Origin: Aurantiochytrium sp. KH105
Lineage: Eukaryota; Sar; Bigyra; Thraustochytrida; Thraustochytriidae
Assembly: GCA_003116975.1 (NCBI GenBank)
Contig: BGKB01000134.1
Location: 62,001-126,000 of the forward strand
DNA length: 64,000 nucleotides
Direction: 5' to 3'
The notes beneath the pieces were generated by a model that was not told the DNA's origin, did not search any database, and saw nothing but the letters and a program-made list of their open reading frames with translations. Made by a program: the position numbers and the translations under genes. Shown here piece by piece: positions 6,880-59,770 of this stretch. Each line of letters begins with the position of its first letter. Position 1 is the first letter of the stretch.

Positions 6880-7872
6880 TCATGTGTTTGGAGTTGGAAA
6901 TCGATGAGGAGCAATTCCAAAGGAAAGAAGCTTGGAGACAGTTCCGGAGATCTTCGCGCTTTCCTTGACGTTTTGCGGCGGAAAACCTGTAGTGTGAACA
7001 GTAAACTTGCCAAGAGTTTTCGTGTGAGCCGTACTACTTTCGGACTTTGCTGTTGCTGACTTAGGAAAAGCATTAGGATCCACTTGAAATCTTCCCAGTG
7101 CAGTTGATGGCGGTTTTGCGGGAACAGGCAGACCTGATGCGCACTGCGCGATTGAGGGAAATGATCGTTGTGGGTGAATCTGAAAAGCACGCAATGATTT
7201 TCTTTGAGACGAGGACTGTTCGGCATGTATGTGAGAGGATGACTTTGACGACGGAGGAAAACAGCGAGGCGCTGCACCAAATTTGACGAGTCCACGAGTC
7301 CTGCTCGAGGAAATCTGACGGTCCGCAGGTGGGAAGTGAGTCGTCGAAATGCCGAACTGCGCGAGTCCATTTTGCCGCACTGACGAGTTCTGATCGGGAG
7401 GAAACTTGGCTGGGTCCGCACGGAAACGCACAATCGATGATTCGTGAGCGCTTGTGCGAGCATGGTCCGGTGAGTGCTGCAAGTTGTTCTGCGCGCGAGA
7501 CGCATCAATTGTGGCATCTGCAGGCTCGTCGGTGTGGAAAGGTTCTTTCTCTTGCTGAGGCCGTGGTCTGCCAGGCAAGCCCTGCGGGTGCACTGCGAAC
7601 TTGCGAAGACGGGCGACAGGTCGCACGGCCCATGGATTCCGGAGCTCTGATCCCTTTTCTTCATCTTCAAAATCGGGCAATCGTGGCTTGTCCTCAACGC
7701 TCGGGCCTTGGAAGCGATGGAGGAGCACCCGTTTTCCAGGGCTGCACCCACCTTCGGGCTCTGGCGTATACGTTTCATAAAAGGTTTCGAATTTTTCCTT
7801 TCGCTTCTCGCGCAGCCTTTGCTTGCGTTCGGCTAGGCTTTCCTCGTTTCCTGCAGCTTCATCCTGCGTCAC
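6880..7872 (-). CDS. Protein with eight F-x-[IV]-x-P-x-x-F-P motif repeats, unknown function
   Basis: 330 aa. I do not recognise a family. Seen: a charged helical N-terminus (about 10-35, RKQRLREKRKEKFETFYETY) and no membrane segment. A short motif then recurs eight times, near residues 88-100, 147-158, 169-181, 194-206, 226-239, 258-270, 286-297 and 314-326. The consensus is [LIV]-x-x-F-x-[IVA]-x-[PT]-x-x-F-P; examples are LGRFQVDPNAFP and LGKFTVHTTGFP. Spacers are Ser/Gln/Lys-rich and 10-46 residues long. Inference: a disordered multivalent ligand in which each motif docks one copy of a partner, or a filament- or microtubule-binding repeat array. Converges with the C2/coiled-coil gene (179 bases between stops). 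Confidence 0.65.
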   Translation of the reverse strand: MTQDEAAGNEESLAERKQRLREKRKEKFETFYETYTPEPEGGCSPGKRVLLHRFQGPSVEDKPRLPDFEDEEKGSELRNPWAVRPVARLRKFAVHPQGLPGRPRPQQEKEPFHTDEPADATIDASRAQNNLQHSPDHARTSAHESSIVRFRADPAKFPPDQNSSVRQNGLAQFGISTTHFPPADRQISSSRTRGLVKFGAAPRCFPPSSKSSSHIHAEQSSSQRKSLRAFQIHPQRSFPSIAQCASGLPVPAKPPSTALGRFQVDPNAFPKSATAKSESSTAHTKTLGKFTVHTTGFPPQNVKESAKISGTVSKLLSFGIAPHRFPTPNT

Positions 7873-8421
7873 GTTGTCACCCGCTGTCAGTAACCCACGA
7901 ACCTCTGGTCCACCTACCTCGTCGTCTCGTCGTCGTTGTCGCCGTCGCCTCGCCTCGCCATCTTGCGGCTCTTTCGCTTGCGTCTACGCGCGAGCGCACA
8001 AGGCGAGTCGAAAGGGCTCAACTTACCCCTGTTGCACTCGCTGATCGCGCGCCCCGAAGGCTGCGCGCGCGCCAGGACCGAAGTTGCATGGCCGCCTGTC
8101 CTCGCGTCGCGTCAAGGTTGGTTTGCTCGTCGAGCTCGTTGTCGGTCTCTTTTTGTCACGGTCCGTCAACTCATGGGTCAGCCACGCCTTTTGGCTGCCA
8201 AGGCGCAAGTGGCCGCAACGGGGCAAGACTAATCTTGCGAACAGTTAGTGAGTAATCTAAGCCTGCCGTTGCAATGAACTGCAAGCCTTCCCTTCGAGCG
8301 CCTAAGAAGATTCTTGGAATACCAAAAAGAGAGGGGAAATGAATGACGCAGCATTGTTTGGATACAAAGCTCTTACTTCGTGATGACTTCTTTTGTTGTT
8401 GTGTTCTAATTTTTGATAAAC
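7873..8421. other. Intergenic: promoter of FP-repeat gene and 3' flank of the FHA/RAMA gene
   Basis: 549 bases between two minus-strand genes. No convincing coding or RNA feature seen. Confidence 0.45.
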
Positions 8422-11400
8422 TTAGAGAGCAAATCCATCCATGGACCAGGGGATAAGATCCGAGCACATGTCAGGGTCAGTTCTGTCAATGCGGCCTGCG
8501 CCGGCCTTTGCGAGATGAGACTTGTCGAAAATTCTGAGAACGTTGGCGGCGCTCTCGCGCCAGCGCTCATCTTGAACGCGGTAGCAATCCGACTTTGCCC
8601 AATCGACGGCAAGCATACGCGTTGGGTCGTTCGGGCCAAGCGAGATCCACTCGGTCAGAAGCGGATTGAAGGCGTATATGATGCGATAGGGGGTGTCTGC
8701 ATGGTGCGTAAAGTCCACCTCGGAGATCTTGGCAGGAAACCAGCCCACCGGATTTCCCGCAGGATACTCGAGCCTGGACATGACGATAGTGCCAGCCGTA
8801 TACACTGCAACGCGATCCTTGATGACGCGCTCACTTTTCACGAGGCGGAGCTCCACACCGTCGCCGGAGCACAGCGGACAGATGAATTCACGCATCCTCT
8901 CGCCGTCTCGCTGCGAAATGTCAAAGTCAAAACAGCGTGGGTGGATCCACCCATTGCAAGCCCCAGTCGCCTTGGAGCACTGCAGATACCACCTGCCCTC
9001 GCCCTCCATCTCGCTATCGTAGCCTTCGGACTCGCTGGCCGCCGCACTAGCATCATCATCTCCGTTGCGACGCTGGCACATGCAATACATTTTCGAATCA
9101 TTCGTCTGCCGCGGCGTATTCAAGGCTGCGCGCCCCGCCATCTTGCGACGCTTGCGCTTCTTGCGTCCAGGGCCCGCGCGACTGCTGACGCTTTGCGTTT
9201 CGTCTTCCTCGAGCGCGGCGTCGCCTTCGCCAACAGCGTCCTCGGCCGCAGCCGATGTTGCTTGCGGGCGCCACTGCAAATGAGGGGCCTCGAGGTACTG
9301 ATGCGAAGCAAGTTCGTCTTCTCGGGCGGCCAGGGCAGGCGAAGGCTGTTTCTTGGCGCGGAGCGCACGGATCTCCGAAAGCAGAGAATAGCTCTCTTTC
9401 ATTTTCTGCTGCCGACGCGACTCACGCACGGAGCGGTAGAGCTTGCGATACACGTGCAGGTTCTCAAAGGTTGTCTCCTCATTATCCTCGTCAATGCCGC
9501 TACGCATGTCGTCATCGTCGTCGTCATCGTCGTCCATGTTGTTTTGGTCCTGATCGTCTTTGTTGCCTCGGCCCGCCTCCCCACTATCGCGGTCATCATC
9601 GCCGCCAGCACCACTACCGTTGCCACTTCCTGTTTCTGTAGTCGCCGCCGCAGACCCGGGCGGAATGTAAAAGATCGAGTACCAGCCCGAGTCTGACCGA
9701 ACGTTCGGATTCACGCGCCGCTTGATTTCGATTGACCACAGCGAGGGGCTCGCGTACTCGCCGTCCGTTACGCAGTCAACAATGATACCATCGGTGCGAA
9801 GGTCTGCCCAAAACTCGCGCCCCTTGTAACGTACGCGTAGCACACGTTTGCCGGGCCGCAAGACCTCTGCGTCGATCAGGTTCTTCATGGTTTCATCCTT
9901 TTTCGAGCTGCGCACAGCCGGGAGCGGGCCAGCATTAGCCAGCTTGACGCCCGGAGGGAGGCGCGAGGCATCTTCGTCTTCGAGCTCGCTATCACTCTCA
10001 ATCTGCAGCTCAAAAAAACCTTGTTGGCGCGTCGCCTGCTGGCGTGTCGAGATGCGTCCGCCGCCACGGCGCGAGCCCGGCTCTGCGCTCGACCATGGAG
10101 CTGTAGTAGTCGCTGGGCCTTGACCTGCGACGCCAAGATTTGCGACGCTGCTCCGAGTGGAAGATGCAAAGTTCGCAGGGAGCGAGGTCGAACACATTGA
10201 GTTCGTACGCTGCAGGTTGGCGCCAGAGGAAGTGCTGGCTATTGCCCCAGTCGTCACAGAGGATCGCCGCGAGGCGCGACCACTGGGCGCTGCATCGCCA
10301 GCGATGATTGGCTTCCCCGCGGGCGCGCCGGCGGCGCCCTGCTCGGCGAGCTCTAGAGCCTGCTTCTTTTCCTGATACTTTGCCCGAATAGAGTCGAGAG
10401 TCTTGCCACGAAACACAATCGAGAGCCAGCCATTGTCCCCACTCAGCTTCGGGTTCGTTTTGCGCTTGCAGTGCACGCTAAAGCTGGACACCGAGTCAAA
10501 GACGATCCCGTCGCAGAGAATAGTACCATCCGGATTCAAGGTCGCCTGGGTCAGGTTGTTCTGATACTCGACCAGCAAGACACCCTCGCCAGGCTCCAGA
10601 AACCCAAGCTTGATCATATCGAGCAGAATACCGGGCACGTTCTTTGGTGTGCGAAGAGGAGTCGTGGCGCCCGAGGAGCTTCCGGCGAGGATGCCCGTTC
10701 CGACACCGGTATCAAGGTTGCTTGGGCGTGCCCCCGCACCGCTCTCGGCCAAATCTGTTCCTCGCGGCGACATGTCTCCGCCATGCCCATCTTCATCGGC
10801 AGCATTGTATTCAGGGGGTAAGCCCGCGTTTGTCCCCTCTGTGACAAAAGCCTTCCAGCGGGCGTACTCGGGCATATCCTTGTACTGCTTGTAATAGTAC
10901 GCGATGAGGTCGTGCGGAGACTTGCCGTTGTTGCGGAAGATCGGGTCATTCCTATAGATTGAAATAAAGTCCTTCAGACTCTCGTACATGCCCTTGTTGA
11001 AAGCGCGGCGTTCAGCGGGCGTCCAGTCGAGGGTCGTGTCGGCGCGATCGTCCGCGTCGATGGGCAGGGGTTCCGGTTCGTTGTGCATGAGCTTGTTCCA
11101 CGCCCCGATGCTGCCCTTACCCTTGCCCACCAGCAGAGGGTCTTTCACCTTACGGAGCATTGCTGGAATTTCCACCTGAAAGTCGTTACCCACACGAGCG
11201 CCAGGGCCTTGCGGCAGAATTGTACCGCCATCTTTGATCGCACCAGGAGGCACCCCTGGGTTGGCATCAAGTTCTTTCAGGGCAGCGAGATCGTCCTTGA
11301 GCGCCGCAGACGTGCTGTCTGCGGCCGAGGATCCGATAGAGTTGCGTCGGCTTGCTCGTCCGCCTCGCTCGCTGCCCTCGCCAGGAAGGCCACTGCGGCT

Positions 11401-13155
11401 GACCTCATGTCCAGCCACTCGGTCCTTTGACGCGAGCGCGCTGTCGGCTTCGTCATTGTTCTTGTCGCTCTTGATATTATCAATGTTGTCGGCACCCTCA
11501 TCGTCGTCGTCGTCGTCGTCCTCCTCCATCGCGTCACCATCATCACCCTTGCGAGAGCGGCTACTACGCCTGCGACGCTTGCCATCCGCAGGATCCGCAT
11601 CATTGGAAGCTTCGCCCGAAAGATCGCGATGGCCTCCGATGGCCACCGCCGCCGCTGCGTCTGCGGCGCTATCGGTGGAGCGTTTACGCTTGGCCACTAC
11701 GCGCGGAGACATGACGTGCGGGTGGTGCTTGTCGCTGTCGAAAATTGATGCCCCTCCGGGCGGTTTGCGCACCGACTTGGAAGGCTCGTTGGGAAATGGG
11801 CATTCGTTCGCCGTGCGCACGGTTTCGCTGGTGGGCGGGCCTGCGCCAAAGACGGGTGATTGCGATCGTGAAGCTGCGAGAATGTCGCCTGGCATGCTCG
11901 AGCCGTCGTCGCTGCGCCGCGGGGACCCTTCGCCAGGGGCACGTTCGCCTCGCACGGCAGAGTTCCACGAAAAGACGGTCTCGTCCTTATGGTCCATGCC
12001 ACCCACTGCGCCGGCGGACCCGCTTCCAGACTGCGCAGAGAGTCGTCGCTGCCTCGGGGACATCCCGTTCCAGATACGTGGGGACCCTCCCAAAAGCATG
12101 CGGCTACTCGAACCAGGAGAGAGACTTCCGTGGCGCTGGCGCGGATGAGCAGTCCCTGCAGGAGGCTCGTCGATGGCCCACTGTGCGCTGGACGTGCGTT
12201 CAAGTGGCGCAAGTGCCAAGTCTTCTGTCTCTGACTTGGTTCCGACACGAGCCAGGCCTATGTCCTCCTTTACAGCAGCACTTGCGGCATTTGCGGCATC
12301 CGCAGCTGCAGGAAGAGTTGCATCGGTCGCTTTGGTCGTATTGGCAGCATCTTCAGCAGCAGCAGGAGGAGCAGCATCGTCAGCAGCAGCAGAAATAGCA
12401 GAAGAGGATGACGTCACTTTGCCATTCTTCGTCTCTTCTTTGATTGCACCTGCGACGGGGTCCGAGTCTTTCTCTGTCTTCTTTTTCTTTTCCTCCTCCT
12501 TTACCTCTACTTGTTCTTTGACGGCCTTGTCGCCGACCTTTGCGATATCAGACTCACTCTTTAATCCGAGGGAATCCTTGGCGCTGGCCGCAAGAGCTTT
12601 CTCGAAACTTGAGTTGTTCTCGGAGGACTCCGTTTTCACAAGTTTCGTCTCGGATTTTGTATCCTCATCTTTCGGCCTACTTGTACTCTTCACAGGGCTC
12701 ACAAGGTCGCGCGCTTTGACATTGCCAGCGCCGCCCATTACGTGTACAAGGTCCCCTTCACGTCGGATACAAAGCTGATTTGAGAGTCTGTTCTTGAAGT
12801 GCAGCTCCACCATGCCTTCTCTACTCCAAAAGAAGGTGTCTCCAGTCTTGATTTTGATCCGCGTGGAGGGCTTTGCGCTATTTTGGTAGTACGCCATGGC
12901 GTTCTGTCCTAGGCAGAGGCATTCAAGGCCCCTGGAACGCCCTGTAACACGGAGTTGTTTCCGGCTCACTTTCATGTCTTCGATGCCAAGCGCAGATTCG
13001 GTCATGCTAGGGTAGTCTCGACCGATCATTTGCTCTTCTCCGATTGTGATTCGGCGAAGAGCCTTCGTTTGTCGCGATGGATCGAAAACGATCCAGGCCG
13101 TTGTCTTGGCTGGTGGTGATGCAGATGCATCCTCGCCGTCCTTCTTGTCAGTCAT
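8422..13155 (-). CDS. FHA / ELM2-SANT / tandem RAMA / PHD / Tudor-like chromatin protein
   Basis: 1,577 aa, single exon. Seen in order: FHA-like fold about 20-140 (IGRDYPS, VSRKQLRV); long charged linkers with nuclear-localisation-like KRRRR and KRKR; ELM2-like segment about 652-675 (RVGNDFQVEIP) leading into SANT about 708-762 (LDWTPAERRAFNKGM, HDLIAYYYKQYK); RAMA 1 about 843-918; RAMA 2 about 1090-1163; acidic tract about 1207-1216; PHD-type zinc finger about 1357-1430 (YCMCQ, NGWIHPRCF, FICPLC); Tudor/chromo-barrel-like end about 1443-1545. Known: ELM2-SANT modules recruit and activate class I histone deacetylases; RAMA domains occur in restriction and adenine-methylase systems and in eukaryotic MPND, which binds N6-methyladenine DNA; FHA binds phospho-Thr; PHD binds histone tails. 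Inference: a nuclear co-repressor scaffold that may read DNA adenine methylation. Both RAMA copies share PG-x-x-VL, DG-x-I and GW-x-SI positions. The domain combination is unfamiliar to me. Confidence 0.82.
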   Translation of the reverse strand: MTDKKDGEDASASPPAKTTAWIVFDPSRQTKALRRITIGEEQMIGRDYPSMTESALGIEDMKVSRKQLRVTGRSRGLECLCLGQNAMAYYQNSAKPSTRIKIKTGDTFFWSREGMVELHFKNRLSNQLCIRREGDLVHVMGGAGNVKARDLVSPVKSTSRPKDEDTKSETKLVKTESSENNSSFEKALAASAKDSLGLKSESDIAKVGDKAVKEQVEVKEEEKKKKTEKDSDPVAGAIKEETKNGKVTSSSSAISAAADDAAPPAAAEDAANTTKATDATLPAAADAANAASAAVKEDIGLARVGTKSETEDLALAPLERTSSAQWAIDEPPAGTAHPRQRHGSLSPGSSSRMLLGGSPRIWNGMSPRQRRLSAQSGSGSAGAVGGMDHKDETVFSWNSAVRGERAPGEGSPRRSDDGSSMPGDILAASRSQSPVFGAGPPTSETVRTANECPFPNEPSKSVRKPPGGASIFDSDKHHPHVMSPRVVAKRKRSTDSAADAAAAVAIGGHRDLSGEASNDADPADGKRRRRSSRSRKGDDGDAMEEDDDDDDDEGADNIDNIKSDKNNDEADSALASKDRVAGHEVSRSGLPGEGSERGGRASRRNSIGSSAADSTSAALKDDLAALKELDANPGVPPGAIKDGGTILPQGPGARVGNDFQVEIPAMLRKVKDPLLVGKGKGSIGAWNKLMHNEPEPLPIDADDRADTTLDWTPAERRAFNKGMYESLKDFISIYRNDPIFRNNGKSPHDLIAYYYKQYKDMPEYARWKAFVTEGTNAGLPPEYNAADEDGHGGDMSPRGTDLAESGAGARPSNLDTGVGTGILAGSSSGATTPLRTPKNVPGILLDMIKLGFLEPGEGVLLVEYQNNLTQATLNPDGTILCDGIVFDSVSSFSVHCKRKTNPKLSGDNGWLSIVFRGKTLDSIRAKYQEKKQALELAEQGAAGAPAGKPIIAGDAAPSGRASRRSSVTTGAIASTSSGANLQRTNSMCSTSLPANFASSTRSSVANLGVAGQGPATTTAPWSSAEPGSRRGGGRISTRQQATRQQGFFELQIESDSELEDEDASRLPPGVKLANAGPLPAVRSSKKDETMKNLIDAEVLRPGKRVLRVRYKGREFWADLRTDGIIVDCVTDGEYASPSLWSIEIKRRVNPNVRSDSGWYSIFYIPPGSAAATTETGSGNGSGAGGDDDRDSGEAGRGNKDDQDQNNMDDDDDDDDDMRSGIDEDNEETTFENLHVYRKLYRSVRESRRQQKMKESYSLLSEIRALRAKKQPSPALAAREDELASHQYLEAPHLQWRPQATSAAAEDAVGEGDAALEEDETQSVSSRAGPGRKKRKRRKMAGRAALNTPRQTNDSKMYCMCQRRNGDDDASAAASESEGYDSEMEGEGRWYLQCSKATGACNGWIHPRCFDFDISQRDGERMREFICPLCSGDGVELRLVKSERVIKDRVAVYTAGTIVMSRLEYPAGNPVGWFPAKISEVDFTHHADTPYRIIYAFNPLLTEWISLGPNDPTRMLAVDWAKSDCYRVQDERWRESAANVLRIFDKSHLAKAGAGRIDRTDPDMCSDLIPWSMDGFAL

Positions 13156-42185: not shown

Positions 42186-42351
42186 TTAATCGTGAGAGAG
42201 TTTGGGAGTCTTGGGTGCGCGCCCTGAATTTTCTTCCTTTGCTTGCACATCCGTCGCTGCTGATGATTTCGAACCCTCCGACACTGGTGTTTTTCGCTTT
42301 TCTGCACTGCGCGCAACGCTAGCTGGGGATGCATTCGTTGACACTGGCGCA

Positions 42352-42385
<34 letters not shown>

Positions 42386-44315
42386 TGGAAGAAGATGCTT
42401 GGGCACTCGAGGACTTTCCACTTTTAGAGCGCGGTACAAGGGTATTGACCGGCGACGACTTGGTGGCCCCACTCTGCGCAGATTTGCTACGAGGCACGAG
42501 TGTGTTGACAGGCCCCGAGCTCGCAACAGTTTTGGACTTGCTGCGCGCTTGCAAGGTATTTACAGGCGCGTTCGAAGCGAGACGCGGTTTGGATATCGTC
42601 GTCTTCGTCGCTGCGGATTTTGATGCTACTGCCGCTGCCGTTTTCTTTGTGCTAGCCTCTGCCCCTGCAGAGGTCTTGTGGCGCGGCGAAGAGGACATGC
42701 GCGGGCGTTTGGCCTTGCGACGAGCGTCGGAATTATGTCCAGAACCTTCGCCTTCATCGGCATCCTCTTCCTCCTCGTCACCCGCGTCAATAATTCCAGT
42801 TCCACCCCCCGATCGCCGCGCCCCACTTCCCGAGGCTTCGCGCTTGTTGGATCCACGACTCCCGCTGCTGGCGGTAACTCCGGCTCGGGACCCTTCGTTA
42901 TCGGTATCACTATCAAGATCGCTCTCGGCAACTTCGGGAATTGGAGGGTCATCATCTTCTTCCTCGTCATCCTCACGCACCATGCCATCGTCGTCCTCGT
43001 CGTCGTCCTCGTCGTCATCTTCCTCGTCGTCTTCGTCGTCGTCATCTTCCTCGTCGTCATCTTCTTCGTCTTCTTCGTCGACATCGTCGTCTTCGTCTTC
43101 TTCTTCATCGTCTTCTTCTTCATCGTCCTCGTCGTCGTCATCATCGTCCTCCTCGTCATCGTCCTCGGGCCCACCACCGGGCTTGCCGTCTTGCCGCTTA
43201 TCGCTGCGGCCCTTAAGTTCGGTCTCATATCGATCGACAAACTGCTGCAAAAGCTTACTTTCGGCCTTGGGAATATTCTCGCTGACAAAGCCCGAGAGGC
43301 CCTCGATTTCCCGCGTGATCTTTTCAAAGTCGGCATCGGGAGCTTGTACCATTCGTTTGAGGGTTTGTGTGACAATGCCTTCGATTTCCTCGCCATCCTG
43401 GGACTCGAGAAACTCAGCGTTGCGCTCCTCTGAAGAAGCTTTGGCCGTGCCGACGTCCATAAATACCTTAATGTAGTCCCGCCAGCTTCGGTCATCGAGT
43501 TCCGAGTCGTCGACGATATCTTTGGCGTTCGCAAGGCATTCAGGGCAAAACCACTCGTCCTCCTCGGGAGGTTCCTCGATACCCAGACACGGCAGGTGAT
43601 AAGATCGCGGACAGCCATCGCACAATAGCAAGTCGCCCCCTTGTTCACAGAGTGAACAAAAATCCTCATTCTCGCTCTTGATGCCAACTGAGGCCACGCG
43701 AGGCCTGCCGCGGGCACCTTTTTCAATCTTGAGCAGGACGCCCTCCTCGCCGTCAATGTTACGGGCGACCAGAATTTCGTCGTCGCCATGAAAAGCTTCC
43801 TTGAGCACGGCAAAGCGCACGGGGAGGGCTTCTAGGGGACACTCGAGGCCCGCAAATACGGGATCCGACTCAATGACGGCCCCCCAATCGCCGAGCCCGT
43901 AACGCTCTACGCCGCGGACCAGGGCATTGTCTTGTGCTCGCGTAAACCACAGTGACCTCTGCATGCGCTCCTTTTCGGCATTTCCCGCTGCAATTGACTC
44001 TGCGGCGAGGCGCTTGGCGCGCTCGTTCTCCTCGGAGGACTTTGTCTTTTGCCGAAAGTGTTTCTTGTTGAATGGAGGACAGGTTTCGAACTCGAAGCCC
44101 ACGAGGTGGCCCAGTTTGCTCTTGAGTCTGCGCGCAGCGTCCTCCGATTTGCCCTTACGCGTCAGCGAGCGCGGCGTGGACCCTGCCGCCGCAGCAGCAT
44201 CCTCGGTCGCTGGTGCCAGAGCGCGCCGTATCACCGCGGGGAGCGCTCCTGCCGGCGGCAGAAAGTCCAGCAGGCCCGCCTTGACCTCCCCGCCACTCCC
44301 CGTAGCGCCGCCCAT
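42186..44315 (-). CDS. Myb/SANT-PHD finger chromatin protein with acidic tract
   Basis: About 709 aa from the Met at 44315 (MGGATGSGGEVKAGLLDFLP); the frame is open 18 codons further. Seen: a Myb/SANT-like helix set about 120-175 (LWFTRAQDNALVRGVERYGLGDWGAV); a complete C4HC3 PHD finger about 218-262 with Cys220, 223, 232, 235, His240, Cys243, 257, 260 (CSLCEQGGDLLLCDGCP); a ~75-residue Asp/Glu tract; then a Ser/Lys-rich tail with three PVNTL-x-x-RSKS repeats. Known: PHD fingers of this EQGGDLLLCD type (as in BAZ/AIRE/CHD) read unmodified or methylated H3K4. Inference: a histone-tail reader in a remodelling or transcription complex. The acidic tract may bind histones. Substrate state of the PHD cannot be read with certainty. 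Confidence 0.85.
42420..42570 (-). repeat. Three PVNTL-x-x-RSKS peptide repeats in SANT-PHD tail
   Basis: Coding copies encode APVNTLQARSKS, GPVNTLVPRSKS and SPVNTLVPRSKS, spaced by Ser/Lys/Ala-rich linkers. Confidence 0.85.
42950..43175 (-). repeat. GAC/GAT/GAA-rich microsatellite encoding an acidic tract
   Basis: Encodes about 75 residues that are nearly all Asp or Glu in the SANT-PHD protein. In other frames it yields poly-Ser or poly-Val/Ile/Phe shadows. Confidence 0.9.
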
Positions 44316-44803
44316 GCTCGCTCGCTGGCTCGCTGGCTCGCTCGCTTCAGCGCGCGCAGCGCAGCGCACGCACGTGGCGTGCGTGCGTGCTTAGGTGCCT
44401 TCTGCTGGGAAATCAACTTTGCTTTTTCTATTTTTGTTGTTGTTATTTTGACGCGACCTCGCGCGCACCACCTCTTTTTGGGTGGGGTGTCATGACTTTC
44501 TACTTCATCCAAAAACGAATGCTCTTTCATGTCGCGATAGGTCCTAGGTTAAGAAGAAAATCGTCAAGCGACGCCGTTACACAGAGACACCACGGAGAAT
44601 GCTCTTCTCATTGTGCTTGTTTTCTACAAATACGGCAAGCTGGCTGGCTGAGACGGACGGTGCACGATGAACACAAAAATCTCGCAGCTAGACTCTCCCT
44701 TTCTGCATCGTCAAGCAGTTCACCATCGATTTTAGCCAACTAGGCGAAACATCAAACGCACTCCCATCATTGCAAAATATTGATCGCTTACATCTACGCA
44801 CAT
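44316..44803. other. Intergenic: SANT-PHD promoter and CFAP96-like 3' flank
   Basis: Here the SANT-PHD gene starts at 44315 and the CFAP96-like stop is at 44804, both on the minus strand. 488 bases with CGCTCG/GCTGG and GCGTGC units near the start codon. No gene seen. Confidence 0.45.
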
Positions 44804-45868
44804 TTATCGGGGCTTGGAGGAGAGGCTGTGCTTTAGCGCAGTCGGGTTGAGCATGACACTTCGCACAGGCCGAGTTTGCGAGGCGCTAGAAGGGCGCCAA
44901 GACTCACGCTTGCCCGACGCTTCATTGTTGTCGCGACGACGCTTCGGATCACTTGGATTTGACTCGGGCATATAAGGAAAGGGGGCGCCCGGTGCGTGAA
45001 CATTACCTGAAGGACGAAAGGGTTGCGCGCTAGCAGGTCTGCTACGTGCAGGACGCTCCCGGCGCCTTCCGTCGTCAATGGGTGCATGAATAAAGGTGTC
45101 CTCATCTCTTCCAAAAATGCCAGAAGTGGCAGGGCCAGCGGAACAAAAGGGTCGACGGTCAGGGCCCGTCGTGCCTCGCTTTGCCGTGCGCAAAGGCGCT
45201 GCAGAGGCCGGTCGCGAGCGCTCCTCCCGTGGGTCGCTCGTCAAATAGATTTCGGACAGCAGCACCCCTGGAGTGCCGTAGGACCCTTTTTTCATGGGCC
45301 GAGTCAAGAAGTTAGGTTTTGTCTCGCTCGTCTTGGCACGGATTGCCTTGATACGGCGGCGGTCCGCAGCGAGAAGATCCTCGCGTGTCTTGCGAATGAG
45401 AGCGCGGATTTCGTCTCTGGACATGCTGCTGTCCGACGCAGAAAAGGCGCCAACATAAGCTCCAAATCCAACCGAGCCTCCACCACCCGCGCGAAAAGGG
45501 GTTGAGCTGACTGGCTTGGCGCGATTTTTGGTTGCAGCGTCAGAGCCGGACACTTTCGCAGCAGCATTGTTCGCAGTTGCAGCCGCCGCCGATGCAGAGG
45601 GGGCACTTACGGATGCTGCATGAGCCGAGTTATCCATGGGCGGCGGAGCTTTTCCAGCCTTAAAGTTAGGCTTGTTCTTGGCAAAGCTTCGCGATACCTG
45701 GACCGGGTCGCGGTACGGGTCGCCGACACAGACAGGGGTAATCTCGTGGAACATGCCATTTTTGCCCTTCATCTGCTCTGACGTTGCTCGCGCCTCATCG
45801 ACGATCTCCCTGCGTCTCTTTTCCCGCCAGACGCGATCCTTCGCGCGCGACCCGCGAAGGTGCGCCAT
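44804..45868 (-). CDS. CFAP96: CFAP96 (C4orf47)-like ciliary protein
   Basis: 354 aa. Seen: a basic helical N-terminus; ITPVCVGDPYRDP followed by KNKPNFKAGK; a glycine patch FRAGGGGSVGFGAYVG; FLTRPMKKGSYGTPGVLLSE in the middle; two SRPASA-P-type repeats; and a C-terminal TRPVRSVMLNPTALKHSL. From memory, human C4orf47/CFAP96 has ITVGDKY, KNKQMLPG, CGLGSYYGTI, NPGKKGTGYG and SRPVESIMTLNVRRAL in the same order. Known: CFAP96 is a cilium- and flagellum-associated protein linked to microtubules and centrosomes. Inference: a component of the flagellar microtubules of a zoospore. The Ala-rich insertion (about 80-110) is extra. No membrane segment. Confidence rests on ordered short motifs rather than a computed alignment. 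Confidence 0.68.
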   Translation of the reverse strand: MAHLRGSRAKDRVWREKRRREIVDEARATSEQMKGKNGMFHEITPVCVGDPYRDPVQVSRSFAKNKPNFKAGKAPPPMDNSAHAASVSAPSASAAAATANNAAAKVSGSDAATKNRAKPVSSTPFRAGGGGSVGFGAYVGAFSASDSSMSRDEIRALIRKTREDLLAADRRRIKAIRAKTSETKPNFLTRPMKKGSYGTPGVLLSEIYLTSDPREERSRPASAAPLRTAKRGTTGPDRRPFCSAGPATSGIFGRDEDTFIHAPIDDGRRRERPARSRPASAQPFRPSGNVHAPGAPFPYMPESNPSDPKRRRDNNEASGKRESWRPSSASQTRPVRSVMLNPTALKHSLSSKPR

Positions 45869-52341: not shown

Positions 52342-55300
52342 TCAATGCTGCAGGGTTGGAGCATCGGCCTCCTGGTGCTGACGCAAATGCGCTAGGGCCA
52401 GAGCAGCAGCCTCGTTCTTCTGATCTAACTCGAGTGCACGACGAAAATGATTTGCGGCATCGTGCGTAGCTCCACGGCTATAAGCAATCACACCCAGATT
52501 ATTCTCAGCCCCCGACGCATGCGCAGGAAAAGACGTAGAGACAACCTCGTACAAGAGCACAGCCTCAGAAAATTGACTTGTCCGAAAGTACGCATTCGCG
52601 AGATCCATGAGAACTCGCGCATCGCGTACCTTGGCCGCCAACACCCGCTTCGTCGGCAAAGCGTCTACAACACTCAACACAGAATTGTTCAGGTGCAAAA
52701 AGAGTGCTTTGCGGTACACACGCACAGCTTCCTCGTGCTGGCCCGACTCGACAACAATATCTCCCATGAGTCGCACGGCCTCAAAATTCATCGGAAAGTC
52801 GCGCAAAATACGCACTGCGAGGCCAACGCGGCTCGTTCTGCGATATAAGCGAGCTAATTGACACGCAAGTACGGGGCGCAGGTCACCCGCAACCTCATCC
52901 TCGTTCTCGCTATCCGTCGAAAGCTCTTGCAGACCCTCGGGGCCATCATCGCGCGTCAGGTGGTCTTCATGGCTTCCTCGCCGCTCCTCGAGCGCCTTGA
53001 GCGCCGTACGCGCATGAAGAAGCGCTGTGTCGATTCGCCCAAGCTCCTCGTTCGCAAACGCTAAATTAACCCGAGCGCTCTCTTTGCACACATTCGTGTC
53101 CTTGGCTCGCTCATCGCACAGAACGAGAACACGGTCCAAGATCTCCACCGCACGCTCGTACTCGCCCTGCTTAATGAAAACTGCGCCCAAGTTGTTCGCT
53201 GCCCCAATATGTCTCGCCAACAAAGGATGCTCGAGGTACCGTACAGCTTCATCAAAGTGGCCCAGATGAAATTTTAGGCTGCCCAAGGCGTAGAGACTGC
53301 GACCCAAGTGCTTGTTATTGAGGTACATTTTGGACACCACGAGGTCCAGGAGTGCAGCGGCTGGCTCGCCTTGTTTCTGAAGTTGAAGCCTTTCTGCATA
53401 CTCGAGAAATCCGTCAGGAGCGCAATACAGCGTTTCCGGGTTGTTTCGGGCGCTTGAAGACGCGTCCTTTCCCAGACTTGCGTGCAAGGCTGCAGCCGCC
53501 TGCGCCAAAACGGCAAAGCTTTCCTCTTGGGTCCCGCTCACATTATCTTCAAGGCGGAGCAATGCAAGTCCGCGCATCGCGAGTTCACATGGGCTTGAAG
53601 AGCTGGCGTCTTGAAGGACCCGGACGGCTTCCCGCGGTTGTCCGGCCTCAAGAAGGAGAAAGGCGCGACCCGACGTTTGCCCAGCGCTCGTGAAATGTGC
53701 AAGAGACACAGCGCGCGCATGGCGGGCCACCGCGTCCGTGACAAGAGCACTGGCGTCGTGGCAGGCCCACGCGGAAAGAATATGCATTTCCTTGACGAGA
53801 CGGTCCTCTTTCGGAAGGGCCGAGAGAGCCCACCATGCGTGCATCGCTGCCGCCATGGGTCGGGAACGGCCAAAGAAATGCCGTGCGAGATGTGCGTGAA
53901 CTAGTGTCGAGACAGACGACATGAGCGGAGCTTGATCCAAATCACGACCCACGGAGAGGCGCTCCGCAATGAGCAGATGCGCGGCAAATGCTTCCATTTC
54001 AGCATCGGCACTCGCCAGCGCTGCAGTGAACTCGTTGCCCAACACGGATCCGAGGCGTTCTGCAGTTGCATCAGATAATGCCCTCCTTTCCTCTCGCGTT
54101 TCCGCTTCTTCGAGGGTAGCCTCGTGCACGGCAAGAGCAACGGCGCTTGAATTCTCGCTGTATGATTTTGCAAGCGAAGTGGCGGCCAATGCTGCTCGGG
54201 CAGGCGGACTGGCGTGGCGAAGCGCGTCCACGAGAGCATAGGCGCGTTCACCTGCCGCAGGCAGCGCCATAATAGCGTCAATTGCACGTGGAAGATCCTC
54301 GGAAAAAGTCGCGAGCTGGCTTGCATACGTCGAAGCGGCGCGCGCTCTTGAGCGTGCAGCAACAATTTTGGCGACGCGGGCTCGTTGTGATGGCGCGCTG
54401 CGCACGGCATCCAGCGCCTCGTCCAAAAGGCCCCAGGACTCGAGGTCATCGGTGGCGTTGGCGAGCCGCACGGCTTCCTCCATTTGTCCGGCTGCGCGAA
54501 GAGTTCGCAACAAGTGGGTGTCGGCCAGCAACGAGCCCCTGCTGGACGCTCGAGCAAACCAGAGTGCAGGGCCCGACTGGCCATCTGCCGCATAAACATA
54601 ACTGAGCTCGCGAAGTGCTGGCGCGCCCGCGCCAACGTCAATAGCGTCCACAAGAAGGTCCGAGGCGTCTTGTGGCCGTCCAAGACGCCGTAAGACGCTT
54701 CCAAGCTCCAACAGGGTCCGCGCATGCATGGCGTCGACAGTCTCAAAGGCCCAGCTCCACGGAAACATTTGCGCAGAGCTTGAGGGAGGAATTGTTGCTG
54801 TTGCCTCATCCTTTGGCGCGGATGAGGCGCCATTGCTTATGTGGTGAGCTCGCGACGTGAAGACGAGAACTCGCGTGAGATACGTAGCTGTGAGCTCGAG
54901 ATCCCTGGGCTCGCGCTCGTCATAGAGACGGGCCAATCGGTAATGTGCATCAGCAGCTGCGCGCGTCGAATTGTCTTGCATGCTCGCAATGGCCTCGAGA
55001 AAAGCATCACGAACTTGCTCAATGCTAGCCTCGGATCGGCTGGCAAGCTCCACCCCGAGAGCGTGGAATGCAGCGGGCTCCTCTGGATGCGCACGCGTCG
55101 CATCTTGAAGCATTTCGAGCCTTTTGGCCTTGCCAACAGCGTGAGCAGTCCAGAGCATTGCGCTAAGATGCGCGGGACCATTAGGATTCAAGAGTGTCAT
55201 GGCTCTACCAAGGTGATGCAACGCCATGTGACGGTCGCCCATGCTAAGCAGAACGACGCCGAGTTCGAGCTCAGCGCGCGGGGCGAGTGGGGAGGCCTCG

Positions 55301-58248
55301 TGCGCAATAACGTGCTCGAAGCAGTCTGCCGCCGCATCGAGGTCCCGATGCGCTGCGAACAAGAGACCCAGGCTCATCAACCCGCCAACATCGCGCGAGA
55401 GCGGGACACCTTCCCGAGCAGCCTTGGCGACGCGCGAATCCGTCAGCGAGAGGGCCACCGTCTGATTGTTGCTTGCAGCCTTGGAAGATGCGCGGGCCCG
55501 ATCCTGCACCGCGCGCGAACCTGTGTGCAACGCGTCATCATTGACGACCAGGCCTGGGGCGCGCAAGGGCAAACCGACGAGAGCCTCGGACCACTGCGAG
55601 AGCCGTGTCGCCTCGAGCTCGTGCTCTTTGGCGAGCGCCGGCTTACCCTGAGCAGCGAGAAGGAGGGCTAAACTCCGGTGCACAATCGAATTCTTCGAAT
55701 CAATCGAGTTTGCTTCTTGCAAGAGCTTAAGAGAGCGCGAAGGGGCCCCGCGCCTCATTTCGACCGTGGCCAGATCCACGCGAGCCTCCATTGCGACGAG
55801 CTTGAGTTCTTCGGTGTCGCCAGAGGACGCTGACTGTGCGAGATCGATGGCGGAGTCAAGGCTGTCTTTGGCCTGCTCGAGATGGCCGAGGTGTGCCTGC
55901 GCGCGACCGATGAGCAGATGCGTCTCAGCATGCGCGGGGTGAATACGATGCGCAGCAGCCGCGATTTCCAAGGCGCGGTGCGCACGACCATGGTCCATAT
56001 GAAGTCTAGCGAGGGCGAGCATGCAGTCCATGCATGTGGGATCGGCGTAAAGGGCGCGCTGCCAAGCGACCAATGCAACCGTTTCGTCCTCAGCGTTGTG
56101 GGCCAGCATGATGAGAGGCGCTGTCTCCCGCGGCCAGAGCGTTGTCGCGGCTTGCAAAACTGCGCGCGCTTCTTCTTGTCTACTGGACGCAAGGACCAGG
56201 ACGCGCGCCGCCTCGACATGAGTCTCGACACTGCCAAGATTATTTTCATACTGGCCCTGAAAAGCGGTCCAATAATAATCAGCTGCTTGGGCCGCCTTGC
56301 CTTGGGCCACGAGAGATCGAGCCAGACCAAGATTGGCTTCCGTGTCGTCGTTGGCGAGTTCAAGTGCGGCCTGAAAATGGTTTGCAGCCTCGGCGTACTT
56401 GCCCGCACCCAAGGCCGTATGGCCTCGACCCAAGAGACCACGGAGCTGGATGACGTTGGCAATTCCGTCGGAAGAGAGATGCTGCGCGAGCTCTTCTGCA
56501 CGGACAAAAGCTGCTTCAGCACTATCAAATTTGTGCTGCGCTAGAATGACTTCGGCGTGCAAAAGGTAGGCGTCAGCTTGCTCAAAGGATGCCTTTTCGT
56601 TTTCCTTACTGAACTTGTCTGCTTCGAGGAGCTCGCGTTGCGCAATGGCTTCGGCCTCGCGGGCTCGACCTCGCTCGAGATACAATCTCGCGAGAAGGGG
56701 CTGCGCGTTGCGCGTCACGCTGGGATTCTCGAGCACCTTGATGGCGTCATCGAGACGATTTCCTTTGACAAGTGCCTGCGCGAGTTCCACTCTCGAGCGA
56801 TCGTGTGCGCGAGATCGAGGTGACATGGGCGAGTTAATTTGCGCGTCGGCGTCAACGTTGGGATTCACGTCGACGCCAGCATCGCCTTGGTGTTCCTCGG
56901 CACCTTCGATGAGCCAAACGGCCTGCTGGAGGTGGGAAATGGCGCGGCGCAAAAGGTTGTCGGATTCAAGCTTTGTCGCGGCCTGCGAAGCCGCGTGCGG
57001 GGTGGCGTGGATCTCCATGAACTCGTTGCGGAGAATGCGACTCCGCGCACGTAGCACACGCGCAAGCCCGAGATGCGCATCGGCTGAACTAGGCCACCTT
57101 TTCACGGCACGGGAGAGAATGCGGGCAGCCTGGTCCCATTCTTGCCTTTCGGCAAGAAGCGACCCAACCCGAATGAGGACGTGGGCATCACTGCAACCCG
57201 CCGCCACGGCACGCTGAAGATGATCGAGAACACGCTGCGACAGCGCGCCATCCGAGTCCGTCGAGACTGGCTCTACGCTGGAAAGCGCAAAGCTCTCTGA
57301 CTTGACGACGAAGCGACGAAGGAGCGAGGAAGTCTCGTCGATCGCTTCTTTTTCAGAGTCTTCCGATGTGGCATCGGCTCGCCTTCGGAGAGCAAGAAGG
57401 GCGTCGGCGCTCAGCCCGAGGCCTTTGTTCGCCTGCAGCGACAACGGTGCGTCTCGCAGTACACGCGCGAAGAGTTGAAAGGCCTCGCGCGCTAGGCCGC
57501 GTTCATAAGCGAGTCTTCCGGCGGCAGCGCCAAGAAATTCGCGTAGGTCCGTCTCTGCCCATGGTGGTGCACGCCAGAGGCTTTCCTCATATAGCTCTGT
57601 CAATGCGTTCTGTGCGCGAGCCTTGTCACCAAGGTGCATGAGCGCCTCGGCGCGTAGGCAAGCGGCTAGCTTGGCACCGGTGGATGTTTGGAGCTCGGGA
57701 ACCGAAGCTGCTAGAGATTCAATGTGTTGTGCTCCGCGGAGTGCTTCAGACCATGCGCCTTGGGCAGCGGCTCGCACGGCGCGTTGGAGCTCCTCGTTCG
57801 CTCTGTGGGCCAGTTCTACGTGTGCAGTCGCGGCCTCGAGGTCCTCCAAGGTCCCCAGGTCGTCCTGCGCGTTGGATATTGCCCGACCATCTCTGTGCAC
57901 AGCGCCTGTGTTTTCCTGCTCGACCATGCCCCCGGCCTCGCCCTCCGAGGCCGCCCATCGCGCGCGCTCGTCGTCGCCGCCGTTGTTGGGACAGTTGGAG
58001 TGCAGCCATGCCTTGGCGTCCAAGGCGCCGCTCGGGAATGGCGTCGCCGCGCGTGCGCCCGCGAGGAGGCACCCGCGGTGCACCGGCGCTGGCGTCGCCG
58101 CCTGCCGCGTCTCCTCCGCCGCCGCCGCCGCCGCCGCCGCCGCCAGCGCGACCGCGACCGCGAGCGTCGCCAGGGGCCGCCGCCGCGTCTTCTCCTGCGC
58201 GCGGGGCATGGGCCATCTCCCCCCGCCCCGGGCGCCAATTCGCGTCAT
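52342..58248 (-). CDS. Giant secretory-pathway TPR-repeat protein
   Basis: About 1,968 aa from the Met at 58248, or 1,955 aa from 58209 (MPRAQEKTRRRPLATLAVAV), which gives a cleaner signal peptide. The frame stays open to 58581 through a GATT/GATC repeat that encodes SINQSV-like residues and is probably leader. Seen: signal peptide or signal anchor (poly-Ala core), then tetratricopeptide-type helix pairs through almost the whole length, e.g. AHLGLARVLRARSR, ANKGLGLSADALLALR, ETHLLIGRAQAHLGHLEQAKDSLDSA and NNLGVIAYSRGATHDAANHFRRALELD at the end. No later membrane segment or catalytic domain was seen. Known: TPR arrays are protein-binding scaffolds. Inference: a luminal or surface scaffold, unusual because most long TPR proteins are cytosolic. 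Family not recognised. Confidence 0.82.
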   Translation of the reverse strand: MTRIGARGGGRWPMPRAQEKTRRRPLATLAVAVALAAAAAAAAAEETRQAATPAPVHRGCLLAGARAATPFPSGALDAKAWLHSNCPNNGGDDERARWAASEGEAGGMVEQENTGAVHRDGRAISNAQDDLGTLEDLEAATAHVELAHRANEELQRAVRAAAQGAWSEALRGAQHIESLAASVPELQTSTGAKLAACLRAEALMHLGDKARAQNALTELYEESLWRAPPWAETDLREFLGAAAGRLAYERGLAREAFQLFARVLRDAPLSLQANKGLGLSADALLALRRRADATSEDSEKEAIDETSSLLRRFVVKSESFALSSVEPVSTDSDGALSQRVLDHLQRAVAAGCSDAHVLIRVGSLLAERQEWDQAARILSRAVKRWPSSADAHLGLARVLRARSRILRNEFMEIHATPHAASQAATKLESDNLLRRAISHLQQAVWLIEGAEEHQGDAGVDVNPNVDADAQINSPMSPRSRAHDRSRVELAQALVKGNRLDDAIKVLENPSVTRNAQPLLARLYLERGRAREAEAIAQRELLEADKFSKENEKASFEQADAYLLHAEVILAQHKFDSAEAAFVRAEELAQHLSSDGIANVIQLRGLLGRGHTALGAGKYAEAANHFQAALELANDDTEANLGLARSLVAQGKAAQAADYYWTAFQGQYENNLGSVETHVEAARVLVLASSRQEEARAVLQAATTLWPRETAPLIMLAHNAEDETVALVAWQRALYADPTCMDCMLALARLHMDHGRAHRALEIAAAAHRIHPAHAETHLLIGRAQAHLGHLEQAKDSLDSAIDLAQSASSGDTEELKLVAMEARVDLATVEMRRGAPSRSLKLLQEANSIDSKNSIVHRSLALLLAAQGKPALAKEHELEATRLSQWSEALVGLPLRAPGLVVNDDALHTGSRAVQDRARASSKAASNNQTVALSLTDSRVAKAAREGVPLSRDVGGLMSLGLLFAAHRDLDAAADCFEHVIAHEASPLAPRAELELGVVLLSMGDRHMALHHLGRAMTLLNPNGPAHLSAMLWTAHAVGKAKRLEMLQDATRAHPEEPAAFHALGVELASRSEASIEQVRDAFLEAIASMQDNSTRAAADAHYRLARLYDEREPRDLELTATYLTRVLVFTSRAHHISNGASSAPKDEATATIPPSSSAQMFPWSWAFETVDAMHARTLLELGSVLRRLGRPQDASDLLVDAIDVGAGAPALRELSYVYAADGQSGPALWFARASSRGSLLADTHLLRTLRAAGQMEEAVRLANATDDLESWGLLDEALDAVRSAPSQRARVAKIVAARSRARAASTYASQLATFSEDLPRAIDAIMALPAAGERAYALVDALRHASPPARAALAATSLAKSYSENSSAVALAVHEATLEEAETREERRALSDATAERLGSVLGNEFTAALASADAEMEAFAAHLLIAERLSVGRDLDQAPLMSSVSTLVHAHLARHFFGRSRPMAAAMHAWWALSALPKEDRLVKEMHILSAWACHDASALVTDAVARHARAVSLAHFTSAGQTSGRAFLLLEAGQPREAVRVLQDASSSSPCELAMRGLALLRLEDNVSGTQEESFAVLAQAAAALHASLGKDASSSARNNPETLYCAPDGFLEYAERLQLQKQGEPAAALLDLVVSKMYLNNKHLGRSLYALGSLKFHLGHFDEAVRYLEHPLLARHIGAANNLGAVFIKQGEYERAVEILDRVLVLCDERAKDTNVCKESARVNLAFANEELGRIDTALLHARTALKALEERRGSHEDHLTRDDGPEGLQELSTDSENEDEVAGDLRPVLACQLARLYRRTSRVGLAVRILRDFPMNFEAVRLMGDIVVESGQHEEAVRVYRKALFLHLNNSVLSVVDALPTKRVLAAKVRDARVLMDLANAYFRTSQFSEAVLLYEVVSTSFPAHASGAENNLGVIAYSRGATHDAANHFRRALELDQKNEAAALALAHLRQHQEADAPTLQH

Positions 58249-58406
58249 GGCGCCACGGCGCGACCGCCGCTGCGGACGAAGGCCCCGCGCGGCCCCGCGC
58301 AGCCTCGCGCCCCGCGGCCGCCGCTGCTGCGCGCGCGCCGAGCCAGCCGAGCCGAGCCGAGGCGCGGGATCGACCTCGCGGCCTCCTCGCCTTGCTTGCT
58401 CGCCTG

Positions 58407-58565
58407 CTTGATTGACTGATTGATTGATTGCCGATTGACCGATCGATCGATCGATCGATCGATCGAGTGCGCTCGTGGAGTTGACTTGGTTGCCTGATGT
58501 GAGTGACTGACGGATTGACTGACTGACTGATTGATTGATTGATTGACTGACTGGTTGATTGACTT
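58407..58565 (-). repeat. GATT/GACT/GATC tetranucleotide repeats in TPR gene 5' flank
   Basis: Blocks of GATT at 58408-58430, GATC at 58440-58466, and GACT/GATT at 58505-58563. Similar in make-up to the tract before the protease gene. Confidence 0.9.
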
Positions 58566-59770
58566 GCGGCCGGTCAATCAAGTCAATCGGCCAAGGGCGA
58601 GCAGCAGCAACAAGAGCCTCCCGTCGGTACAGAGAGTCGAGTGACTCGCCCCTTGCGTGTCCTGGCTTCGCCCCGCGAGACCTTCATTTGCGAGGCGCCG
58701 CGTCTCCTTTCTTCTGTCTGGACGCAGCCTTGCCGGCCAGCCAGCCAGCCAGCCAGACAGCTCGATGAAAAGCTTGACTCGGCCGAAGATGCTGCCAATC
58801 AAATCCATTTTTTCCCTTTTGGTGCTAGTAGCGCACAGGCACAGACGAGGCGCCGCGCCGCGCCGCGCCGCCCGCGCCGAAGCTTCTCCACTCGAGACGT
58901 GGGGAGACCGCTCGGCTACGGCACGGACGGACGGATGGATAGCGCTGTTGGAGAGCGGGCGACCGCGAGCTGCGGCTGCCGGCAACATCGCGCTTGCAGG
59001 TCCGCCGTCCACGAAGCAGTATAATGTAGAAGCAACATTGGTGTGTGTGGGGGGGGGAAGGCGGCAGAGGCGGGTCTTTCGCCAAGTCAGACTCTCGAAG
59101 CTGCGACAGTGGATCTCATCCCGCCTCTTCAAGCCGCGGCAAGCCTGCATCCAAGCATGCATGCGCGCAGGCCAGCGCGCCCGTCCTGACGAAGCGCCGG
59201 CACCGCGGGCGCAGCCCAGGCCCTACGCAGACCTCACGGGGAAATGCACCAGCGCCGCGCTCGCGCCTCCCAGCGCTCCAGACGGCCTTGATTGACCTGA
59301 TTGACCCGCCTGACTCACACCTGAGCCAGAGAAGGGCAGGAGAGCCGCTATGGCCCAGTCCCAGACAGCGCCGTCAGCAGCAGGCGTCGATCGCCGCGCC
59401 TGGGCGCGCCTGGGCGCGCTGGGGAGCAGGCCAGGGCCCCGCGGCCGAACGCGCACGGTCAGTGTCAGGCATGTGTACCTGCAGCTGATCATTGACCGAC
59501 GGACACGAGGCCAGCGCAGCGGCGGTTGGGCTAACGAAGCCAATCGGGCCCTCCGGGCAGTACTAGTATTAAGCCTAGGTAGTCCGCCGAACCGTCGCCG
59601 AGGCACAGGCAAACAGGCAGACAAGCAGAGGCAGGCAGGCAGGCAGGCCTTTTTCATCATGGCGATGAGGCTTCACGATTGATTATGGTGGTGACTAGGT
59701 CGACGTGGGCAATGTTTGAGTCCTCGTGCGGCATTGTTGGGAGGCATGTGACAACGTTATCTTGTTGCCT

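Follow-up and report, generated by a model that had tools for sequence, protein, structure and literature searches.

A candidate histone deacetylase scaffold built around tandem RAMA domains in the thraustochytrid Aurantiochytrium sp. KH105

Among 18 unicellular eukaryotes in which DNA N6-methyladenine (6mA) has been profiled, the mark was robust only in those possessing AMT1, and AMT1-dependent 6mA has been documented across several eukaryotic supergroups (PMC12695648). In AMT1 species it lies downstream of transcription starts, between nucleosomes carrying trimethylated lysine 4 of histone H3 (H3K4me3). That study, whose H3K4me3 data cover few species, also records 6mA in the stramenopile Aurantiochytrium limacinum. 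The identification of potential 6mA readers has been called key (PMC12695648), and no canonical reader has been identified in fungi (PMC13297926). The RAMA domain was predicted to be a eukaryotic 6mA sensor by Iyer, Zhang and Aravind in 2016, and the RAMA domains of MPND and CcrM have been shown to bind DNA through its backbone and to leave the bases untouched (both in PMC9963953). Other chromatin proteins, such as MTA1 of NuRD and MIDEAS of MiDAC, carry an ELM2 box followed by a SANT domain and serve as scaffolds for class I histone deacetylases (HDACs). In yeast, Set3C resets acetylation over 5′ nucleosomes. Here we describe a gene of Aurantiochytrium sp. KH105 (GenBank assembly GCA_003116975.1), found in a window of 64,000 nucleotides (contig BGKB01000134.1, positions 62,001 to 126,000, forward strand), whose product joins two RAMA domains to a PHD finger and a reduced ELM2-SANT region. 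The reading that suits it best, which we put forward tentatively, is a nuclear scaffold that would bring a class I HDAC to 6mA-marked gene 5′ ends. The features on which this reading is built are, in window coordinates:

8422..13155, minus strand: uninterrupted reading frame P0001, 1577 amino acids (intact in the second haplotype; dN/dS)
10363..10638, minus strand: RAMA domain 1, residues 840-931 (Pfam 70.1 bits; 7ydt E 2.4e-12)
9655..9915, minus strand: RAMA domain 2, residues 1081-1167 (Pfam 61.6 bits; 7ydt E 2.6e-13; dN 0)
9466..9606, minus strand: acidic stretch after RAMA2, residues 1184-1230 (sequence composition)
11152..11199, minus strand: putative ELM2 N-terminal box ARVGNDFQVEIPAMLR, residues 653-668 (Pfam ELM2 16.5 bits, sub-threshold)
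10846..11031, minus strand: SANT domain, residues 709-770 (MTA1 score 53; MIDEAS E 0.1)
8860..9090, minus strand: PHD finger of C4HC3 type, residues 1356-1432 (zinc ligands; sub-threshold in Pfam; BPTF E 0.089; dN 0)

Both RAMA domains can be assigned with certainty on profile and structure-linked matches. The Pfam family PF18755 (curated cut-off 35.2 bits) reached 120.9 bits over two stretches of the whole protein, each copy also exceeded the cut-off as a separate piece, and the E values listed above were obtained with phmmer against the MPND RAMA structure 7ydt. The two repeats that the first-pass annotation had placed at about 10402-10629 and 9667-9888 lie close to these intervals. In MPND, S113, S115 and W135 hydrogen-bond the DNA backbone, and mutation of each almost abolishes binding (PMC9963953). 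When positions were matched by our own count, in which the numbering of the structure chain runs one ahead of that of the protein, these residues aligned with S888, S890 and W910 in RAMA1 and with S1136, S1138 and W1158 in RAMA2, so that both copies look competent for DNA binding. The resemblance to MPND (PDB 7ydt/7ydw) extends to its histone-linked setting and to the acidic stretches near RAMA, which flank the domain in MPND as well (PMC9963953). The difference lies in the architecture, since MPND has a single RAMA with an MPN domain and lacks ELM2-SANT, PHD and FHA, whereas the window protein carries two RAMA domains within an HDAC-type scaffold.

The frame begins at the first in-frame ATG and runs for 1577 codons, while the other two frames of the same strand contain 35 and 72 stops. 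The assembly is eukaryotic (76.0 Mb), and its matches to RAMA, HDAC, ELM2 and MT-A70 are mostly paired over two contigs, which is consistent with two haplotypes. In the second haplotype (contig C128) the frame is intact at 1579 amino acids, with 1517 of 1574 aligned residues identical and 8 gap columns, and comparison over the whole frame gave nonsynonymous (dN) and synonymous (dS) divergences of 0.017 and 0.059 (dN/dS about 0.29). No amino-acid change separates the haplotypes in residues 641-790, which comprise the ELM2-SANT region (dN 0, dS 0.05), in RAMA2 or in the PHD finger (residues 1351-1435), against one change in RAMA1 and four in the C-terminal tail. A chance open frame was ruled out by this intact and constrained second copy and by the base composition of the window, under which the probability of finding so long a random frame without a stop is about 10^-25. 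The sequence can reasonably be read only as one conserved gene, and the earlier statement that the domain motifs share one uninterrupted frame was borne out.

RAMA appears in three different chromatin proteins of this genome. Eight matches were obtained in a genome search (all 8 candidates scored), corresponding to three genes in two haplotypes, the window gene supplying two domains. The second gene (protein B; C33:183001-202000, with its haplotype copy on C47) encodes in one frame, and in this order, a bromodomain (58.0 bits), MBD, FYRN (42.6), RAMA (61.4), a second bromodomain (63.9), WHIM1 and WSD (41.1), of which MBD (19.3, cut-off 21) and WHIM1 (14.3, cut-off 19.1) remained below threshold. 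This build is that of plant MBD9 and of the animal BAZ-type partners of ISWI remodellers, and by this comparison protein B would be an MBD9/BAZ-like remodeller subunit equipped with RAMA. The third gene (protein C; C41:52480-55737, haplotype C16) combines a PHD finger of 21.9 bits, below the Pfam cut-off of 24, with a C-terminal RAMA of 44.1 bits. Both proteins keep the MPND-type tryptophan; the first serine is replaced by threonine in B, and in C the S-x-S motif reads S-P-P.

A search for MT-A70 methylases, which the first-pass annotation had proposed for stramenopiles and which was run here on this genome at E values up to 10, returned one gene in two haplotypes (C167:74560-75126 and C37). 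A third match (E 0.118) contained two internal stops and was discarded as noise. For the second exon of the gene, similarity to METTL3 amounted to 93 bits, compared with 193 bits for the MT-A70 chain found in PDB entries such as 7f4r/7yi8. That chain is listed only as “MT-a70 family protein”, with partner chains named MTA9 or AMT7, and we take it to be Tetrahymena MTA1/AMT1, a DNA 6mA methylase. On this identification, the only MT-A70 gene detected is of the AMT1/MTA1 type. METTL3, METTL14 and AMT6/7 were not detected at E values up to 10, where introns or divergence could hide them, and the absence of AMT6/7 is not claimed because BLAST was needed in PMC12695648 to recover divergent AMT6/7 missed by profile. 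As regards METTL3 and METTL14, the writing of N6-methyladenosine in RNA may be absent or concealed by introns. Cytosine methylase matches numbered three.

Of 26 histone deacetylase matches in the genome two were examined. One is an HDAC1/RPD3-type class I enzyme (470 bits) with a lysine and two arginines at the positions that we take to be K31, R270 and R306 of HDAC1, its inositol-phosphate contacts; the other, on C37, was rejected as class I, its match being HDAC6-like. The dimerisation domain of the MiDAC partner DNTTIP1 gave no match in the genome, in a search in which no positive control rang either.

The PHD finger presents all eight zinc ligands (C1358, C1360, C1393, C1400, H1405, C1408, C1426 and C1429), a full C4HC3 set in agreement with the PHD finger named in the first-pass annotation, although the Pfam cut-off was not reached (see below). 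Its nearest relative in the PDB is BPTF, a weak match (E 0.089). Three of its aromatic residues, Y1357, Y1390 and W1403, line up with those of BPTF that we take to form the H3K4me3 cage, and may themselves make up a methyl-lysine cage.

The SANT region was compared with MTA1 and gave a score of 53 against 27.5 +/- 4.5 for shuffled sequences, none of 1000 reaching it, with an alignment confined to the SANT part. In Pfam it matched DUF7952 only (16.7 bits, cut-off 33.4). MIDEAS was matched at E 0.1 overall, 2.8 bits falling on the ELM2-box stretch and 10.8 bits on the SANT stretch. The stretch from the ELM2 box into SANT scored 68 against protein D, an ELM2-SANT-PHD paralogue from the same genome (contigs C27 and C56; frames of 1893 and 1887 codons with very long glutamine runs), a score reached by one of 1000 shuffles. 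The tyrosines of what we take to be the inositol-phosphate site of MTA1-type SANT domains (Y-Y-x-x-K) are kept, its lysine aligning less directly (see below). By the comparisons with MTA1 and MIDEAS the SANT domain is related to HDAC-binding SANTs.

The ELM2 box ARVGNDFQVEIPAMLR recurs in MIDEAS and in protein D, where the genome search gave the same short form 27.0 bits in one haplotype and 26.1 in the other, and a scan of the piece by itself 26.8 bits, all above the Pfam cut-off of 21.7. ELM2 was not listed by Pfam when the window protein, or protein D, was scanned whole. Compared with MTA1, the linker that separates the box from SANT is much reduced in length. Pairwise similarity to MTA1, MIDEAS and protein D favours the ELM2-SANT region of the first-pass annotation, which a profile above cut-off does not, and supports an ELM2-SANT region that is present but reduced. 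Like MTA1 and MIDEAS, the window protein has an ELM2 box followed by SANT, in a genome with a class I HDAC gene. It differs from both in lacking the C-terminal part of ELM2, from MTA1 in that two RAMA domains, PHD and the tentative FHA stand in place of the other MTA1 domains, and from MiDAC in the missing match to DNTTIP1, subject to the silent control noted above.

In the mechanism that we propose, the AMT1 of this genome would lay down 6mA at gene 5′ ends, and the two RAMA domains would grip linker DNA by backbone contacts, possibly favouring 6mA. The PHD finger would read the H3 tail, probably its K4 methylation because of the possible aromatic cage, and, as in MPND, histone contact may be modulated by the acidic stretches. 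Docking of an HDAC1-type enzyme would fall to the ELM2 box and SANT, and a phosphothreonine input may come from a putative FHA domain resembling those of APLF and PNKP. At active genes, the first nucleosomes would as a result be deacetylated locally, or have their acetylation reset. Tandem RAMA, PHD and ELM2-SANT fit a scaffold recognising a combined state of 6mA and H3K4 methylation, and the logic would be that of Set3C and other PHD-guided HDAC complexes, in which reading of H3K4 methylation by PHD is coupled to 5′-end deacetylation. Unlike here, PHD and SANT belong in Set3C to separate proteins, and RAMA is not known in that complex. As 6mA accompanies active 5′ ends in AMT1 species, local deacetylation at these ends appears likelier than classical silencing, which makes a link from methylation to silencing the less likely outcome.

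A direct link from 6mA to deacetylation had been suggested in the first-pass annotation; the domains it invoked are largely present, as are AMT1-type and class I HDAC genes, while the selectivity of RAMA for 6mA is contested and ELM2 stays below threshold, so that of the two profiles whose absence had been named as refuting only RAMA was recovered above its cut-off. Several observations speak against the scaffold that we favour. The RAMA domain of MPND bound double-stranded DNA through the backbone and gained no binding from 6mA (PMC9963953), so that the tie of RAMA to adenine-methylated DNA stated in the first-pass annotation is contested. Readers of 6mA could recruit activators, as supposed in PMC11760949, and a deacetylase is not usually seen as one. 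The ELM2 piece, at 16.5 bits, is limited to positions 2-17 of the 53 in the profile, the longer C-terminal ELM2 part of MTA1 is missing, and the lysine of SANT helix 3 needs a one-residue gap to align with that of MTA1. The PHD profile scored 17.2 bits in the whole protein and 22.3 bits as a piece, both under 24. The FHA region matched no Pfam family at E values up to 10 and, with 11 changes in 130 residues, diverges more between haplotypes than any other domain. Constraint is weak on the linker of residues 131-640 (dN 0.029, dS 0.044), and in RAMA1 (dN 0.004, dS 0.014) changes of either kind are too few for judgement.

The alternative that survives best, and that we regard as a serious possibility, is that RAMA is blind to methylation. 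The protein would then be an HDAC scaffold that binds nucleosomes in general, comparable to MTA1, MIER and MIDEAS but with RAMA substituting for other DNA-binding domains, and would have no link to 6mA. The residues conserved here are exactly the backbone contacts to which the RAMA domains of MPND and CcrM confine themselves, and the lack of a 6mA effect on MPND (PMC9963953) gives this alternative substantial weight. It accounts less well for the co-occurrence of RAMA chromatin proteins with an AMT1-type gene in one genome, and 6mA selectivity was reported in an earlier pull-down study (ref 9, as cited in PMC9963953). Rather improbable, in our judgement, is a degenerate ELM2-SANT that docks no HDAC, the protein being a reader that joins DNA and H3 to other partners. 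Such a reading would agree with the mere 16 ELM2 residues that match, below threshold, with the gap needed for the lysine and with the short linker; on the other hand, residues 641-790 are unchanged between haplotypes despite a dS of 0.05, and the short form is shared by protein D, in which it passes the cut-off both as a piece and in the genome search. That the frame represents two genes, a case that the first-pass annotation had named as its refutation, or a mis-joined assembly, readings that the long low-complexity linkers between the domains might invite, is very improbable given the same complete frame in the C128 haplotype and its overwhelmingly non-random length.

The remaining features of the protein are the following:

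12787..13098, minus strand: FHA-like domain of APLF/PNKP type, tentative, residues 20-123 (local alignments to APLF and PNKP beating shuffles)
11563..11580, minus strand: basic stretch KRRRRS resembling a nuclear localisation signal, residues 526-531 (motif only)
11488..11532, minus strand: acidic stretch, residues 542-556 (sequence composition)
9142..9165, minus strand: basic stretch RKKRKRRK resembling a nuclear localisation signal, residues 1331-1338 (motif only)
8587..8826, minus strand: C-terminal segment, residues 1444-1523, the Tudor-like claim unconfirmed (no Pfam match)

The FHA region aligned locally with the FHA domain of APLF at a score of 46 (shuffles 24.1 +/- 4.2, reached by 0 of 1000), with PNKP at 44 (reached by 3 of 1000) and with a short aprataxin fragment at 30 (reached by 98 of 1000); its sole match in the PDB was a designed protein (E 0.59), with no relative. 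The GR and SR motifs and the C-terminal GD motif align with those of PNKP and APLF, from which the region differs by a six-residue insertion after GR and by its context, the known domains sitting in DNA-repair proteins. An FHA domain of this type is therefore tentative: pairwise similarity favours the FHA domain named in the first-pass annotation, whereas Pfam and the PDB do not. The Tudor-like tail named with it found no backing, since the segment matched no Pfam profile and no Tudor domain by sequence in the PDB. Its only PDB match, a short stretch of tyrosine hydroxylase (E 0.0037), was judged coincidental and rejected. AlphaFold models made without an alignment were unusable, with mean confidence (pLDDT) of 32.4 for the FHA region and 35.8 for PHD plus tail. 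With 30 of 33 candidates scored, the genome itself yielded 10 matches at E values up to 0.1. None was a paralogue of the FHA region or tail, and four were weak and confined to linker or acidic stretches. Profile scans with PHROGs and NCBIfam returned nothing useful, no homologue of P0001 was found in viral and prokaryotic contigs with search patterns consisting mostly of low-complexity linkers, and neither RAMA1 nor ELM2-SANT, searched alone, matched in viral contigs.

Elsewhere in the window, all on the minus strand, another PHD-finger protein (39.7 bits) is encoded at 42186-44369, and an open frame at 6880-7983 contains repeats such as KFAVHPQGLP, QFGISTTHFP, KFGAAPRCFP and RFQVDPNAFP, with no Pfam match. 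A long TPR protein, whose TTC21-type matches fall below threshold (52342-58581), and a CFAP96-like protein (44804-45868) are consistent with a flagellated eukaryote. In the genome at large, pieces of a PfaA-type polyunsaturated fatty acid synthase scored 930 bits across profile positions 6-1035 and all stayed under the whole-family cut-off of 1010, below which 11 of 14 control genomes also match. Such pieces would fit a labyrinthulomycete, thraustochytrid-like stramenopile.

The first-pass annotation knew of no described protein with this combination of domains, and a search within one literature library likewise found no description of RAMA combined with ELM2, a prior listing by Iyer et al. 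(2016) being possible. The search returned nothing joining ELM2 to 6mA, RAMA to 6mA and AMT1, or N6-methyladenine to labyrinthulids, and the main text of PMC12695648 mentions neither RAMA nor any “deacetyl” word. The domains themselves are known; judged from its sequence, what appears not to have been described is an HDAC-scaffold architecture around tandem RAMA. A broader proposal, to be held as doubtful for the present, is that this lineage possesses a 6mA read-out system, in which AMT1 would write at 5′ ends, RAMA would be built into an HDAC scaffold and into bromodomain/WSD and PHD-RAMA readers, and the window protein would for the first time couple 6mA directly to deacetylation. Three RAMA genes that share their genome with an AMT1-type writer offer concrete reader candidates with small domains, and if even one of these domains prefers 6mA, the mark would gain an effector pathway through deacetylation or remodelling. 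The RAMA hypothesis would then extend from the disputed case of MPND to a lineage that apparently has the writer, and through this protein the question of eukaryotic 6mA readers would become directly testable.

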